From Pseudovibrio japonicus (GTDB lineage Bacteria > Pseudomonadota > Alphaproteobacteria > Rhizobiales > Stappiaceae), in assembly GCF_014651595.1 (NCBI RefSeq), contig NZ_BMXE01000003.1, positions 496,001 through 560,000 on the forward strand: a DNA stretch of 64,000 nt. Direction: 5' to 3'. A program made the position numbers and the translations under genes. Shown piece by piece: positions 3,599 to 10,609 of this stretch; position 1 is the stretch's first letter; each line of letters begins with the position of its first letter. The notes beneath the pieces were generated by a model that was given only the letters and a program-made list of their open reading frames with translations, ran no database searches and was not told the DNA's origin.

Positions 3599-6259
3599 AT
3601 GAGTGGCGTCAACGAAATTCGGTCGGCTTTTCTCGACTACTTTGCAAAAAACGGACACGAAGTTGTTCCTTCCAGTCCATTGGTGCCACGTAATGATCCG
3701 ACATTGATGTTTACAAATGCGGGTATGGTGCCATTCAAAAACGTATTTACCGGTTTGGAAAAACGGGATTACGTGCGTGCAACATCTTCGCAAAAGTGCG
3801 TTCGCGCTGGTGGTAAGCACAACGATCTGGATAATGTTGGTTATACGGCGCGTCACCACACCTTCTTTGAAATGCTGGGCAACTTTTCCTTTGGCGATTA
3901 CTTCAAGGAACATGCGATTGAGCTGGCATGGAACCTGATCACCAAGGAATATGGCCTGCCAGCGGACAAGCTGCTGGTCACCGTTTATTCCGAGGATGAA
4001 GAAGCCTTCAATATCTGGAAGAAGCTGACTGGCTTTGCTGATGATAAGATCATCCGCATCTCAACTTCTGACAACTTCTGGGCAATGGGTGATACCGGTC
4101 CATGTGGTCCATGCTCCGAGATCTTTTATGATCACGGTGAGCAGATCTGGGGTGGCCCTCCAGGATCTCCTGAGGAAGATGGCGATCGCTTCATCGAGAT
4201 CTGGAATCTTGTGTTCATGCAGTATGAGCAGCTGGCAGACAAGCGTATTGATTTGCCACGTCCGTCCATTGATACCGGTATGGGGCTTGAGCGTTTTGCT
4301 GCAATTATGCAGGGCGTGCATAACAACTACGAGATCGACCTGTTCAAGGCCCTGATCGCAAGTTCCGAGCATCTGACGGGCGTTGAGGCTGAAGGCAAAG
4401 CGCAGGCAAGCCATCGGGTGATTGCTGATCACCTGCGTTCCATGTCGTTTATGATTGCTGATGGTGTTCTGCCATCCAATGAAGGCCGTGGTTATGTGCT
4501 GCGCCGTATTATGCGCCGTGCCATGCGCCATGCGAACCTTCTGGGCGCGAAAGATCCGGTTATCTTCAAGATGCTGCCGACGCTTGTGCGTGAAATGGGA
4601 CAGGCGTTCCCTGAATTGCCACGCGCTGAGAAGCTTATTGAAGAGACCATTCAGCTGGAAGAAAAGCGCTTTATCAAGACGCTTGAGCGTGGACTGGGCC
4701 TGCTGGAAGATGCAACCAGTTCTCTTGGCTCCGGTGATCAGCTGGACGGTGAGACTGCGTTTAAGCTTTACGACACCTATGGCTTCCCACTCGACCTGAC
4801 GCAGGACGCCCTGCGTAACCGTGAGATTGAAGTTGATACCGATGGCTTTAATAGTGCCATGGAGCGTCAGCGGGCTGAAGCGCGTGCGGCTTGGTCCGGC
4901 TCTGGTGATGCTGCGACCGATGCGATCTGGTTCTCCATCAAGGAAAAAGCCGGTGCAACTGAGTTCCTCGGGTATGAAACCGAGAAGGCAGAAGGCGTTG
5001 TTCTGAGCCTTGTTAAAGATGGCGAAGAAGTTACTGCCTTGAAGCAGGGTGAGGAGGGGTCTCTGATCCTCAACCAGACCCCGTTTTATGGCGAATCCGG
5101 TGGTCAGGTTGGCGACTGTGGCACCATGATTGCCGAGGGTGTTTCCCTTACTGTCACCAACACGCAGAAGAAGGCGGACGGTCTGTTTGTTCATTCTATT
5201 CGTGTTGAGAGCGGCGAAGTTAACGTGGACGATGCGCTTGAGCTGATCGTTGATCATTCTCGCCGCAGTTCCATTCGTTCCAACCACTCTGCAACCCACC
5301 TGGTTCATGAGGCGCTGCGTGAGGTGCTTGGTACGCACGTTGCTCAGAAGGGGTCTCTGGTTACGCCTGAGCGTCTTCGTTTTGACTTCTCGCATCCAAA
5401 GCCTGTTAGTGCAAATGAGACTGCACAGGTTGAGGCACTGGCCAACGAGATTGTTTTGCAGAACGCGCCGGTCGAGACTTCTCTGATGGAAGTTGATGAG
5501 GCGATTGAAGCAGGTGCGATGGCGCTGTTTGGCGAAAAGTACGGCGATGAAGTGCGCGTGGTTTCCATGGGTACGGCAACGACCGGAGAAAAAGCTGGCA
5601 AGTCCTACTCTGTTGAGCTGTGCGGCGGTACGCATGTGAAGCGTACCGGCGACATTGGTCTTGTAACCGTTGTGTCTGAAGGTGCTGTTGCTGCTGGTGT
5701 TCGCCGTATTGAGGCGCTTACCGGTGATGAAGCCCGCAAGTATCTGGCAGAGCAGGACGCTTTGATGCGTGAAACTGCTGGCCTGCTTAAGGTATCTGCA
5801 GCGGACGTTCCTTCTCGTATTGCGGGTCTTCTCGACGAGCGCAAGAAGCTGGAGCGTGAACTTGCAGAAGCGAAGAAGAAGCTTGCCATGGGCGGCGGTG
5901 GCTCCGGCGGTGATGCTGGCGTGACTGAAGCTGGTAAGTTCAAGCTGATGGCGCGCGTTCTTGAAGGCATCAGCCCGAAGGATCTGAAGTCTGTTGCTGA
6001 TGAAGGCAAGACTGCGATTGGGTCTGGTGTGGTTGTGCTGATCAGCAAGGCGGAAGACGGTAAAGCTGCTATCGTTGTTGGCGCCACCAAGGATGTGAGT
6101 GATACTGCAAGCGCTGTTGATCTTGTTCGCATCGGTTCTGGTGCGCTTGGTGGTCGCGGTGGCGGTGGACGTCCGGACATGGCGCAGGCCGGTGGCCCTG
6201 ATGCAAGCAAGGCTGATGAGGCGATTGCGGCGATCAAGGCTCATCTTGAGACGCTGTAA
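3599..6259 (+). CDS. alaS: Alanine--tRNA ligase
   Basis: This 886-residue enzyme charges tRNA-Ala and edits mischarged Ser and Gly. The catalytic class II domain starts with [20 protein letters not shown] and includes [19 protein letters not shown] and [18 protein letters not shown]. The editing domain zinc/active-site motif is [14 protein letters not shown] and its partner is [14 protein letters not shown] Gly-rich linker (GGGGSGGD) precedes the C-Ala domain, which ends in the usual Gly-rich [17 protein letters not shown] segment. The recA-alaS order is common in alphaproteobacteria. The Shine-Dalgarno sequence before the ATG is weak. Confidence 0.99.
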
Positions 6260-6380: not shown

Positions 6381-7610
6381 GTGGGGAGGTCTGCTGCCGG
6401 GTTTGTTTTTGCTCTGGTCTGTTTGGGGGTGGTTGTGGCATATGCCATCAAATTGAAGGTTTACAACCTTTTGGAGCGCAGCAGCGCGGGCAATCGGCTT
6501 GCACGGCAGATTGATGCCATTCTCATCCTTTTCATTGTGGTGAATGTGGGCCTTGCGGTTTTGGAGACCGAGCCGAGTATTGGGGAGGTCTATATCTGGC
6601 AGATCTTTCTGCTGGATATTATTGCTGGCTCTGTCTTTGCGGCCGAGTACTTGCTGCGCCTTTGGGTTTCTGATCTGCATCCTCCATTGAGGAAATATGG
6701 ACCTTTTAAAGCGCGTGTTGCTTATGCGTTGCAACCGTTGTCGCTGGTTGATTTTGTGGCTGTGCTGCCTTTCTGGCTTTCTCTATTTTTCGCCAGTATC
6801 AGTTGGAAATCGCTCGTTATCTTACGCTTGCTGCGGTTTTTGAAGATTGCGCGGTATTCACCGGCTGTGCGCTCTTTGATTTCTGCGGTGGTTACTGAGC
6901 GAAAAGCCATTGTGGGCAGTCTTGTGCTGATCTTAGGTGTTGCTCTTGTGGCTGCGACATTGCTTTACAGCGTGGAGCATGTGGCGCAGCCTGAAAATTT
7001 TGGCAGTATTCCGAATGCGTTATGGTGGGCGTTCTCCACGCTCACGACAGTTGGGTATGGCGATGTGGTGCCTGTGACGGCTGCTGGCAAGATGATTGCC
7101 AGTCTGGTGATGTTGACGGGTTACTGTCTGTTTGCGCTGCCCGTTGGTATTATCGGCACTGCGTTTGCGCGTGAGATCCATAGCCGCGACTTTGTGATTA
7201 CGTGGGGGATGGTGGCTACAGTTCCCTTGTTTGAGCGCTTGTCTGCAGTTGAGATCGCTGCGGTTACTGAGCTTTTGCACTCACACAGCGTGCCTGAAGG
7301 ACGGAGTGTCTGCGAGAAAGGTGAGGACGGCGACAGTCTCTTTCTTATCGCTTCTGGTGAGGTGGAAGAGGTGTTTGAGGACCACAGCATTGTGCACGGC
7401 GAAGGGGAGCATTTTGGTGAGGCATCCTTATTTGGGCACCGGAAACGGACGGCCAGTGCGATAGCCAGAACGTCCGTTCAGGTCATGGAGCTTAAGATGG
7501 AAGATCTGCGTCGTTTCATGGATCGCAAGCCTGCCGTTGCCAAGAAGATCATTGATGAGGCCATTGATGAGCGCGAGGCTCATCATGTGGATGCGGAGTT
7601 TACTCCTTAG
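6381..7610 (+). CDS. Six-helix voltage-type K+ channel with C-terminal cyclic-nucleotide-binding domain
   Basis: This 409-residue membrane protein resembles the prokaryotic CNG/MlotiK1-type channels. Hydrophobic segments S1-S6 span residues about 8 to 260. The S4-like helix near 146-161 carries spaced R149, R152, K155 and R158, and the pore loop has the K+ selectivity filter TVGYGD at 223-228. The C-terminal part (about 280-390) is a cNMP-binding fold with the phosphate-binding cassette GEHFGEASLFGHRKRTASA. The start is GTG at 6381; the frame is closed just upstream. The 3' end overlaps the convergent GDPD gene by 4 bp. Ligand (cAMP or cGMP) and gating cannot be read from sequence. Confidence 0.9.
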   Translation: MGRSAAGFVFALVCLGVVVAYAIKLKVYNLLERSSAGNRLARQIDAILILFIVVNVGLAVLETEPSIGEVYIWQIFLLDIIAGSVFAAEYLLRLWVSDLHPPLRKYGPFKARVAYALQPLSLVDFVAVLPFWLSLFFASISWKSLVILRLLRFLKIARYSPAVRSLISAVVTERKAIVGSLVLILGVALVAATLLYSVEHVAQPENFGSIPNALWWAFSTLTTVGYGDVVPVTAAGKMIASLVMLTGYCLFALPVGIIGTAFAREIHSRDFVITWGMVATVPLFERLSAVEIAAVTELLHSHSVPEGRSVCEKGEDGDSLFLIASGEVEEVFEDHSIVHGEGEHFGEASLFGHRKRTASAIARTSVQVMELKMEDLRRFMDRKPAVAKKIIDEAIDEREAHHVDAEFTP

Positions 7611-8735: not shown

Positions 8736-9143
8736 TTAAGCCGGCAGACGGACCGTGAGTTCCAGTTCTATCTGCAGATCAGGCAGCGCCAGAGCTGCCA
8801 CTCCAATCCCAGTCAGGCTCGGCTCCGCTCCGTCGAGCATTTCTAATAGGACAGGGAAGGCTTGGTTTAGCCTGTCTGGTGTGAGGTCTTTTATGTAGCA
8901 GCGCAGGATGGCGATGTCCTCCGGGCCTGCTGCTAAAGCATCCAATGCGGCTTTGGCGCTTTGTGCTGCTAGTCTTGTTTGCTCGGCAAGGTCTTTGGGA
9001 ATCGGCGTGCCGTCTGTCCGCCACGCGCACTGACCAGATACGTAGGCCATTCTTCCAGCCTCAACGACCGAGATCTGGGAGTAACCCATTCCCTCTTCGT
9101 TGGGCAGAGAAGGTGGGTTAACGCGCGTTATCGATGAAGTCAT
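8736..9143 (-). CDS. RidA (YjgF/YER057c/UK114) family protein
   Basis: This 135-residue protein of the RidA superfamily typically forms trimers; true RidA members hydrolyse reactive 2-aminoacrylate and other enamines/imines. The pattern YVSGQCAWRTDG in the N-terminal half and ILRCYIKDLTPDRLNQAFPVL in the second half fit the family, with the Arg in ILRCYI in the position of the catalytic carboxylate-binding Arg. Active-site residues differ between subgroups, so deaminase activity is not certain. AGGGGGA lies a little far (about 12 nt) upstream of the ATG. It has no obvious operon partner. Confidence 0.8.
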   Translation of the reverse strand: MTSSITRVNPPSLPNEEGMGYSQISVVEAGRMAYVSGQCAWRTDGTPIPKDLAEQTRLAAQSAKAALDALAAGPEDIAILRCYIKDLTPDRLNQAFPVLLEMLDGAEPSLTGIGVAALALPDLQIELELTVRLPA

Positions 9144-9349: not shown

Positions 9350-10471
9350 CTACTGATCAGAGGCGCAACTTAAGGTCACTTGTCTGTCTGCTGGTGAATA
9401 GAAATAATTGCAGTGCTCGAAGAACTGCTGGCCGCTGTTAAAGAGCATCGGGCTTACACCCGTGTGGCCTAGGGACCATCTTGCGGAGTTGCCAAGGGGC
9501 TGATCTTTGCCGTAGCTCAGCGTTACCAAGAGGTCTTTGCTCTGTTCATCCGTATAGAGCTGCATCTGATAGTCAGACGTCTCAATCTGCCCGCTGTCGG
9601 CGCTGGAGGTGCAACACGGCACTGCTGCTTCAGCTACCGAGACGATGCCAAATGATATGCCGGTGTCCGGGAGAATGCGGGCTGTTTTGGGGCCATCTGG
9701 TGGGTAGATGATTTCGCCGTTCGCTTTACTTGTGATGGCGAAGGGAAGCAGAGGCGCTACCAACTCTGTTGGCTTTGTGGAGGAGGCTGAGAGGGGCAGC
9801 GTGAGCGACTTTCCCAGATTAGGGAGTGGGTTCTGGCTGGAGGCCAAGTATACATCAATGCTGCTGCTGTCAGATTGCGCGTTTGTGAGGGCGTAGTTCT
9901 GATTTTCGAATGGGGTGCCATTCTCTTCGACCAGATTGAGGAACGGATTGGCAGCATTGGGCTGATCGGAGGCCGCTTCCGAAAAACCATCGGGACTGTC
10001 AAAGCCAACGCCCATCATGAAGACCTTCGGGTTGTGATTGCAGCTGGGTGGAGGCGTTGTGGAGCATGTGGGCGTGTTTTTGCTGTTTGGGCAGTGTTGT
10101 ACCGCTGCGAACACCGGAAAGTCTTTGAGGTGCTTTGTAGGAGCCTCGCCGGGCGTTCCAAAGGTGAGGTCGCGTTTGATGATGTAACCGGCATAGGTAT
10201 TGCCGGAGCTGGAATAGGACAGGGTTTTACAGGTGGAGCTTGCCTGTTCCGCTACGGTGGGGATGAAAAAACCGGCGGAGCCGACGATGCCGGTTGAACC
10301 TGTGTCCATCACGAAGATTGACTTCTTAGCTTCGCCACTGGGCGTGTCGGTGTGTATTTCCAACTGGAAATATGGGCCGATCTTTTTTGCTGTGATGGGC
10401 TCTTCGGTTTGCGCCTGCACGATGCCTGCCATACATGTGCTTATCAGAAGAGCAGATAGGTGATGCCTCAT
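9350..10471 (-). CDS. Secreted protein with two DTG motifs, pepsin-like aspartic protease candidate
   Basis: This 373-residue protein has a Sec signal peptide (residues 1-21, ending GIVQAQ). Residues 53-60 read FVMDTGST, and a second motif, ILPDTGIS, is at 266-273. The 213-residue spacing of D56 and D269 is close to that of the two catalytic Asp residues in bilobal pepsin-type (A1) proteases, and SYSSSGNTYAGYIIKR (85-100) could be the flap strand. Eight Cys residues (even number) suggest disulfides in the periplasm or outside. The DUF3443-like families are an alternative assignment. The frame is open upstream to 10717, but the ATG at 10471 starts the signal peptide. I see no protease-family prodomain. 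Confidence 0.6.
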   Translation of the reverse strand: MRHHLSALLISTCMAGIVQAQTEEPITAKKIGPYFQLEIHTDTPSGEAKKSIFVMDTGSTGIVGSAGFFIPTVAEQASSTCKTLSYSSSGNTYAGYIIKRDLTFGTPGEAPTKHLKDFPVFAAVQHCPNSKNTPTCSTTPPPSCNHNPKVFMMGVGFDSPDGFSEAASDQPNAANPFLNLVEENGTPFENQNYALTNAQSDSSSIDVYLASSQNPLPNLGKSLTLPLSASSTKPTELVAPLLPFAITSKANGEIIYPPDGPKTARILPDTGISFGIVSVAEAAVPCCTSSADSGQIETSDYQMQLYTDEQSKDLLVTLSYGKDQPLGNSARWSLGHTGVSPMLFNSGQQFFEHCNYFYSPADRQVTLSCASDQ

Positions 10472-10576
10472 GGTTTTGATCCTTTTTTGATTACGGTAGG
10501 GCCGCAATTGTGAAGGATGCCTTGTGTGGTAATCCCTTGATTTACAGGGATTTGCGCGTTGTCTGAGACTTGTGGC

Positions 10577-10609
10577 AATAAAAAAGGGTGCCCGGAGGCA
10601 CCCTTTTCG
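10577..10609 (-). terminator. Terminator of icd (works on both strands)
   Basis: AAGGGTGCC (10584-10592) pairs with GGCACCCTT (10597-10605) around CGGA. Read on the minus strand the stem is followed by TTTTTTATT; it lies 23 bp past the icd stop. Confidence 0.85.

Follow-up and report, generated by a model that had tools for sequence, protein, structure and literature searches.

Does a solitary gene next to icd, whose product carries a signal sequence and two Asp-Thr-Gly motifs, encode a bilobal aspartic peptidase, and if so of which kind? We addressed this question in the window, the whole 64,000-nucleotide stretch of Pseudovibrio japonicus DNA analysed here, in which the gene (its product is called P0001) and its flanking signals are placed as follows.

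9350..10471, minus strand: coding sequence of P0001, a predicted pepsin-like secreted protein of 373 aa (open reading frame; orthologs in 6 other genomes at the same locus; purifying selection)
10412..10471, minus strand: predicted Sec-type signal peptide, residues 1-20, with probable cleavage between VQA and Q (by eye; Ala aligned at 20 in 23/24 family members)
10480..10488, minus strand: ribosome-binding site AAAAAAGGA, 8 nt before the ATG (kept in the six displayed Pseudovibrio orthologs)
10582..10608, minus strand: terminator-like hairpin (AAAAGGGTGCC..GGCACCCTTTT) behind the upstream icd (by eye; kept in six orthologs and in L084)

The open reading frame runs on the minus strand from an ATG at 10471 to a stop at 9350-9352, and this start is supported by the ribosome-binding site ahead of it and the retention of that site in the orthologs. 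A longer, 455-aa version with a TTG start was rejected, as it begins inside icd. The N-terminus, MRHHLSALLISTCMAGIVQA followed by Q, reads by eye as a Sec-like signal ending in a V-Q-A cleavage site; an N-terminal signal sequence is likewise seen by eye in the 6 orthologs, and an Ala stands at the position aligned with Ala20 in 23 of the 24 rows of the family alignment described below. A lipobox at Cys13 was considered and rejected, the orthologs at L010 and L011 having no Cys in the signal peptide. The mature chain would hold 8 Cys (counted by hand), and D56 would be its residue 36, with 35 residues between the end of the signal peptide and D56, which leaves scant space for a propeptide like that of pepsinogen. 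The original prediction had proposed DTG motifs at D56 and D269, a signal peptide, and a gene standing alone beside icd. In the translation both motifs fall exactly where claimed (D56-T-G-S-T-G and D269-T-G-I-S, with 213 residues between the aspartates), the Sec-like N-terminus agrees with the proposed signal, and icd (named by eye) does lie upstream on the same strand. The hairpin between the two genes indicates that the P0001 gene is a separate transcription unit; a terminator and promoter scan did not list this hairpin and found no promoter-like site on the minus strand.

The gene is present in 7/16 Pseudovibrio genomes, window included. Four of the ortholog loci are named Pseudovibrio and their contigs are placed in the window's genus; the neighbour names icd, GDPD, Kch (potassium channel) and RidA were given by eye from translations. 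In the six other carriers (L010-L013, L091, L092), the gene has icd on one side and GDPD/Kch on the other, with only a partial GDPD match in L013. icd itself was found in 15/16 genomes, the exception (G009) being in 980 contigs. At the eight icd loci of non-carriers (L083-L090) no match to the P0001 gene was found; GDPD adjoins icd in 4/8 of them and Kch in 6/8, and in one (L084, genome G007) the GDPD match and the stop of icd are about 100 bp apart. Within Pseudovibrio, the P0001 gene is thus present or absent as a single gene at one fixed place beside icd. Composition gave no sign of a horizontal gain (GC3 0.636 versus 0.633 for icd), and this candidate explanation was dropped. The gene is under purifying selection, with dN/dS of 0.085-0.21 in the four ortholog pairs whose dS is unsaturated.

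Two neighbours in the window deserve mention. A RidA-like gene (by eye; 8736-9143, minus strand) stands between the protease gene and GDPD and has no match in 14 other Pseudovibrio loci (tblastn, E up to 1e-5). On the plus strand, 6381-7610 encodes a potassium channel whose filter reads TVGYGD and whose C-terminal domain resembles a cyclic-nucleotide-binding one (by eye), a gene that shares 4 bases with the end of the convergent GDPD gene.

Searched alone at E up to 10, P0001 hit nothing in Pfam, and thus not the pepsin family, nor anything in NCBIfam, and its only PDB match was an unrelated designed protein (E 0.98). A first wider profile, seeded with relatives from the order (G040, G053), had matches in 9/385 genomes of the class, and a second profile in 10/398 genomes of the phylum. 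Among these 10, the proteins in G086, G455, G692 and G729 (E 1.4e-4 to 4.8e-4) proved on reading to be other, weakly matching proteins and were set aside as non-members; G705 (locus L057) holds a true member outside the class. A profile built from 17 non-Pseudovibrio members matched P0001 at E 4.4e-30 (Z set to 100,000), its N-lobe alone at 2.1e-23 and its C-lobe alone at 3.6e-4. With both motifs masked, P0001 was still matched at 6.1e-14, and neither one reversed P0001 nor any of 50 shuffled copies was reported at E up to 100. When 5 Pseudovibrio rows were compared with the 17 other members by hhalign, the two groups paired over 284 columns (probability 99.7, E 6.7e-26), with both DTG motifs and a C-terminal N-S/T-G in register. 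By these profiles, P0001 belongs to a patchy, unnamed proteobacterial family whose members are divergent, at about 20% identity.

The alignments referred to below have 8 rows (7 Pseudovibrio and one relative), 18 rows or 24 rows. From the 24-row alignment we left out repeats of the window's gene and of the contigs of L011, L010, L012 and L013 (L001-L003, L005, L007, L045), other cuts of loci already used (L008, L016-L032, L044, L046-L049), the divergent two-DTG protein of L058 with its cuts L054 and L063, a different two-motif protein (L059, L050), one-lobe proteins (L060-L062, L051-L053) and two plasmid hits. Several of its rows, among them L037:7685, L043:4308 and L056, start at the frame cut, with the start codon unsettled. 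Beyond chromosomes, three pattern matches on viral contigs yielded zero confirmed members, and plasmids held no match to P0001. Two plasmid proteins matched the relative at L034, one from Methylobacterium bullatum (39.6% over 80%) and another, annotated as a hypothetical protein, from Xanthomonas sacchari (27.6% over 79%).

Two loci stand apart in form. At L058 (3881-4822, minus strand) lies a shorter protein that looks exported and bears the motifs DTGSTG and LDTGEF; it scores 39.8 bits against the PE-PGRS_C model, whose cut-off is 33 bits, and is matched by the 18-row profile at 1.8e-12, so that by its profile matches L058 is a bridge between PE-PGRS_C and the P0001 family. The member outside the class (L057:4836-6002) begins with a lipobox-like LISC-GGGG, which suggests a lipid-anchored form.

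Some members are much larger. In three genomes, five frames of about 1,040-1,150 aa carry a pepsin-like domain followed by an autotransporter beta-domain (PF03797, in 5/5 scanned), the pepsin-like domain thus forming the N-terminal passenger.

L037:4094-7396: autotransporter member, in tandem with the next
L037:7685-10990: autotransporter member, in tandem with the preceding
L040:2334-5768, minus strand: autotransporter member
L043:4308-7616: autotransporter member
L014:1574-4768, minus strand: autotransporter member

The tandem pair is in G418, and two others lie on separate contigs in G340. PATR repeats were found in 4/5 of these proteins, in 3 over the cut-off. The frame of a sixth autotransporter-like member (L036:4128-7139) is split by one in-frame stop at 5445-5447, through either natural decay or a sequencing error. 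On a tree of 24 members the autotransporter label (six members, L036 included) needs 3 changes; the fusion may still have arisen once. Among the papers listed by a literature search (titles and abstract starts), none showed a fusion of an autotransporter to an aspartic protease, pepsin or aspartyl peptidase; the nearest case was APRc, a retropepsin-like protease that was proposed, with dispute, to cut autotransporters (PMC10414592). Literature searches by model name, for NF038019 and for PF20729, came back empty.

We compared the family with solved structures. The 8-row profile found no aspartic peptidase in the PDB, its only matches being antibody chains at 0.31 and 0.74. Among 177,635 distinct PDB sequences, the 18-row profile ranked first 4EHC (PE_PGRS16; 1.2e-5) and then 1AM5 (cod pepsin; 5.1e-5), followed by a pilus protein at 0.0099; the same two led with 24 rows (4.8e-6 and 2.4e-4, next 0.039). 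In both alignments the two lobes are in register, the second stretch of each being weak alone, and it is the region around the first motif that supplies a large share of the score for 4EHC. Only once the divergent relatives are included does a connection to solved structures emerge. Curated models behaved similarly. With E up to 0.01 as the limit, PE-PGRS_C (PF20729) matched 3/18 members, the best at 5.7e-9. In L055 its match extends over the two lobes (residues 61-297) and scores 25.8 bits, below the cut-off; across the class this model was found in 4/385 genomes, 2 of them over the cut-off, namely the L038 protein (36.5 bits) and L058, which is outside the 24-row alignment. The NCBIfam PecA model (NF038019) matched 4/24 members (best 1.4e-5). 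P0001 itself is below the cut-off of both models. Weak matches to the retropepsin-like PF13650 and PF13975 were seen in 6/18 and 3/18 members, and the Pfam pepsin family is absent from the 3 families matched by any of the 18 members at 0.01. By their alignments, the P0001 family is homologous to both lobes of solved bilobal aspartic peptidases (clan AA).

Structure prediction added little to this. An AlphaFold model of the whole protein, built from five similar Pseudovibrio rows, was poor (pLDDT 47.8), and a model of the N-lobe only reached pLDDT 69.4 and pTM 0.64. With E up to 1e-3, Foldseek returned nothing for either model, a blank to which no meaning is attached in the case of the poor whole-protein model. 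VIA-align of the N-lobe model ranked 4EHC first (Z 4.6, rmsd 3.7, 117 aligned), a score that, like all others in the list, is below 5 and may by the tool's own statement reflect only a common arrangement, several alignments also crossing both target lobes. Aspartic-peptidase folds made up 43 of the best 50 of 206 chains with Z of 2 or more (counted from titles), in a list that may favour families with very large numbers of PDB entries. The resemblance of the N-lobe model to aspartic peptidases is suggestive only.

The predicted catalytic elements of P0001 were placed on the 24-row alignment.

10298..10306, minus strand: predicted first catalytic motif D56-T57-G58 (FVMDTGSTG); D56, G58, S59 and G61 in 24/24, T57 in 23/24
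10202..10216, minus strand: putative flap Y86-S-S-S-G90; Tyr in 23/24, S89 in 23/24, S88 and G90 in 22/24
10001..10024, minus strand: putative N-lobe psi-loop V150-F-M-M-G-V-G-F157 (hydrophobic-hydrophobic-Gly); G154, G156 and F157 in 24/24
9659..9667, minus strand: predicted second catalytic motif D269-T270-G271 (ILPDTGIS); D269 and G271 in 24/24
9431..9442, minus strand: putative C-lobe psi-loop F344-N345-S346-G347; N345 in 24/24, G347 in 21/24; in register with W-I-F-G of cod pepsin 1AM5

The first motif aligns with the DTG of both 4EHC and cod pepsin, and Y86 is, from order and spacing, the proposed counterpart of pepsin Tyr75. In the second motif, position 270 is Thr in 18 members and Ser in 6, and position 272 Ile in 17 and Val in 7. 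Across the family the lobe-2 psi-loop is mostly N-S/T-G, as against the hydrophobic-hydrophobic-Gly of family A1. DTG, Tyr hairpin, MMG, DTG and NTG follow one another as the corresponding elements do in pepsin, whose scheme is given as Asp32, Tyr75, hydrophobic-hydrophobic-Gly, Asp215 and again hydrophobic-hydrophobic-Gly (PMC2761423). Published distances between the aspartates, for comparison, are 245 for shewasin A and 190 for S. medicae (both tabulated in PMC2761423) and 177 for PecA (positions 293 and 470; PMC6819658). An argument for a neutral pH optimum from position 218 was dropped, because shewasin D is reported to act at pH 3-4 although the residue in shewasins is of the neutral type (PMC4814920). 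Altogether, the two aspartates are conserved beyond chance, as judged by their presence in 24/24 members, the unreported shuffled and reversed controls and the low dN/dS. The bilobal pepsin-type reading of the original prediction was also supported, 4EHC and 1AM5 being the first two PDB sequences of the family profile with both lobes in register. Its comparison with the shewasin type was not: P0001 has a signal peptide (by eye), no Pfam match, and DTG-Ile instead of DTG-Ser/Thr in lobe 2. The prediction was therefore right in kind and wrong in family, the nearest curated families, reached through relatives, being PE-PGRS_C and PecA.

We consider it likely that P0001 is an exported, monomeric, two-lobed aspartic endopeptidase of clan AA; its family membership comes from sequence, and export, catalysis, location and substrates are what we infer. 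In the proposed mechanism, P0001 would be exported by Sec, cut by signal peptidase after VQA, and folded in the periplasm with disulfides drawn from its 8 Cys. Each lobe would then contribute one aspartate, the first D56 and the second D269, to the joint activation of a water molecule beneath a flap with Tyr86, and the enzyme would make limited, non-digestive cuts in linkers of envelope or secreted proteins, by analogy with PecA. Limited processing is our preferred role because PecA, the nearest characterised relative, is a surface protease with activity on itself and on PE_PGRS proteins (PMC6819658).

The main rival to limited processing is that P0001 is an extracellular digestive protease, serving nutrition on animal-host or detrital protein. 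The signal peptide (by eye) and the 8 mature cysteines would suit such an enzyme, and coral Pseudovibrio isolates are reported to secrete proteases acting on casein and gelatin (PMC7210813). In the same source, however, pepstatin A removed only 2.48-9.81% of the extracellular proteolysis of four isolates, at pH 8 only, so that an aspartic protease is not the main extracellular activity there of those four strains, which may or may not carry the gene; a fifth row under Pseudovibrio, yF15, shows 4.30% and is called Brevibacterium in the text. The autotransporter-passenger relatives and the lipobox-like start of L057 suggest envelope tasks instead, and we regard a digestive role as rather unlikely. 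The Pseudovibrio protease literature, among the matches listed (titles and abstract starts), does not name this gene, and a second listing of papers contained none on Pseudovibrio. P0001 might also have kept the pepsin fold and ceased to cleave, being exported to serve in binding or inhibition instead, as may be the case for PE_PGRS16. The latter, whose structure is the closest one solved, is reported to show no proteolysis (PMC6819658), and the family of P0001 deviates from active A1 enzymes both in the residue that follows its second DTG and in the psi-loop of lobe 2. Set against this, both aspartates and both motif glycines are kept in 24/24 members and the putative flap Tyr in 23/24, despite about 20% identity, whereas non-peptidase A1 members are described as having lost active-site aspartates (PMC2761423). 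PecA, a relative with DTG/DSG motifs, is active, and its D293G mutant does not cleave itself, the DTG aspartate being needed (PMC6819658). Loss of activity in P0001 is for these reasons quite improbable.

A further reading, in which P0001 is a shewasin-like pepsin of family A1 proper to which a signal peptide was added, draws on the second place of cod pepsin in the PDB search with the family profile. The A1 definition asks for Xaa-Xaa-Asp-Ser/Thr-Gly-Ser/Thr in both lobes (PMC2761423): VMDTGS of lobe 1 fits it and LPDTGI of lobe 2 does not, and of the two psi-loops, MMG of lobe 1 follows the hydrophobic-hydrophobic-Gly pattern and N-S/T-G of lobe 2 departs from it. The empty Pfam search and the fact that the bilobal curated families reached by relatives are PE-PGRS_C and PecA also speak against it, and we hold this assignment to be very doubtful. 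Chance occurrence of two DTG triplets in an unrelated beta protein would explain the empty single-sequence searches, the failure of the 8-row profile to find a PDB peptidase and the weak fold predictions, but it sits so badly with the conservation in 24/24 very divergent members, the masked-motif match and the PDB matches of the deeper profiles that it is scarcely credible.

An exported two-lobed aspartic endopeptidase with limited cutting thus remains our preferred reading of P0001. We propose, more tentatively and as a plausible rather than a probable extension, that Proteobacteria have their own unrecognised lineage of exported, two-lobed pepsin-fold proteases, a Gram-negative counterpart of PecA that would come in Sec-exported free (P0001), lipid-anchored (L057) and autotransporter-displayed forms, the last processing themselves or neighbouring surface proteins. 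If true, the secreted bilobal pepsin would be an old bacterial invention and not a eukaryotic import. Bacterial bilobal aspartic peptidases are few in the cited literature (shewasins and other A1 homologues, avidin-fused A1 domains, PecA and its mycobacterial relatives), and an exported proteobacterial family that conserves both aspartates in all its aligned members and includes autotransporter forms would tie PecA to pepsins through sequence. It would bear on whether pepsins arose in bacteria and would offer a non-pathogenic system for asking what such surface proteases cut.

Among known systems, the A1 domains fused to bacterial avidins, reported in 2021 (PMC8033661), resemble P0001 in being bacterial, predicted bilobal and in some cases proteobacterial; set against P0001 by description only, they differ in being assigned to A1 by InterPro and fused to avidin. 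With the retropepsin-like APRc, RimB and RloA (PF13650, PF13975) P0001 shares the catalytic motif of clan AA, and some such enzymes are secreted and known in Pseudomonas (PMC12239564). Retropepsins are, however, one-lobed homodimers with a single DTG per chain, whereas P0001 has two motifs in one chain, 213 residues apart. Pepsin and the shewasins have in common with P0001 two DTG motifs in one chain; P0001 also has a Tyr at its putative flap and a C-terminal pattern that aligns with that of cod pepsin 1AM5. Yet the lobe 2 of the family has Ile/Val where active A1 enzymes have Ser/Thr after DTG, the bacterial A1 homologues of seven species were described without a predicted signal peptide (PMC2761423), in contrast to the signal sequence seen by eye in P0001, and shewasin D is mainly cytoplasmic (PMC4814920). 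PE-PGRS_C (PF20729), PecA (PE_PGRS35) and PE_PGRS16 (4EHC, with an aspartic-protease fold; PMC6819658) are exported bacterial proteins, as P0001 is predicted to be, with a DTG followed by DTG/DSG; P0001 differs in having neither a PE nor a PGRS region nor type VII export, with a predicted Sec-type signal peptide instead. Judged by sequence, P0001 is very probably an exported bilobal aspartic peptidase that stands nearer to the mycobacterial PE-PGRS_C/PecA proteins than to the cytoplasmic shewasins.
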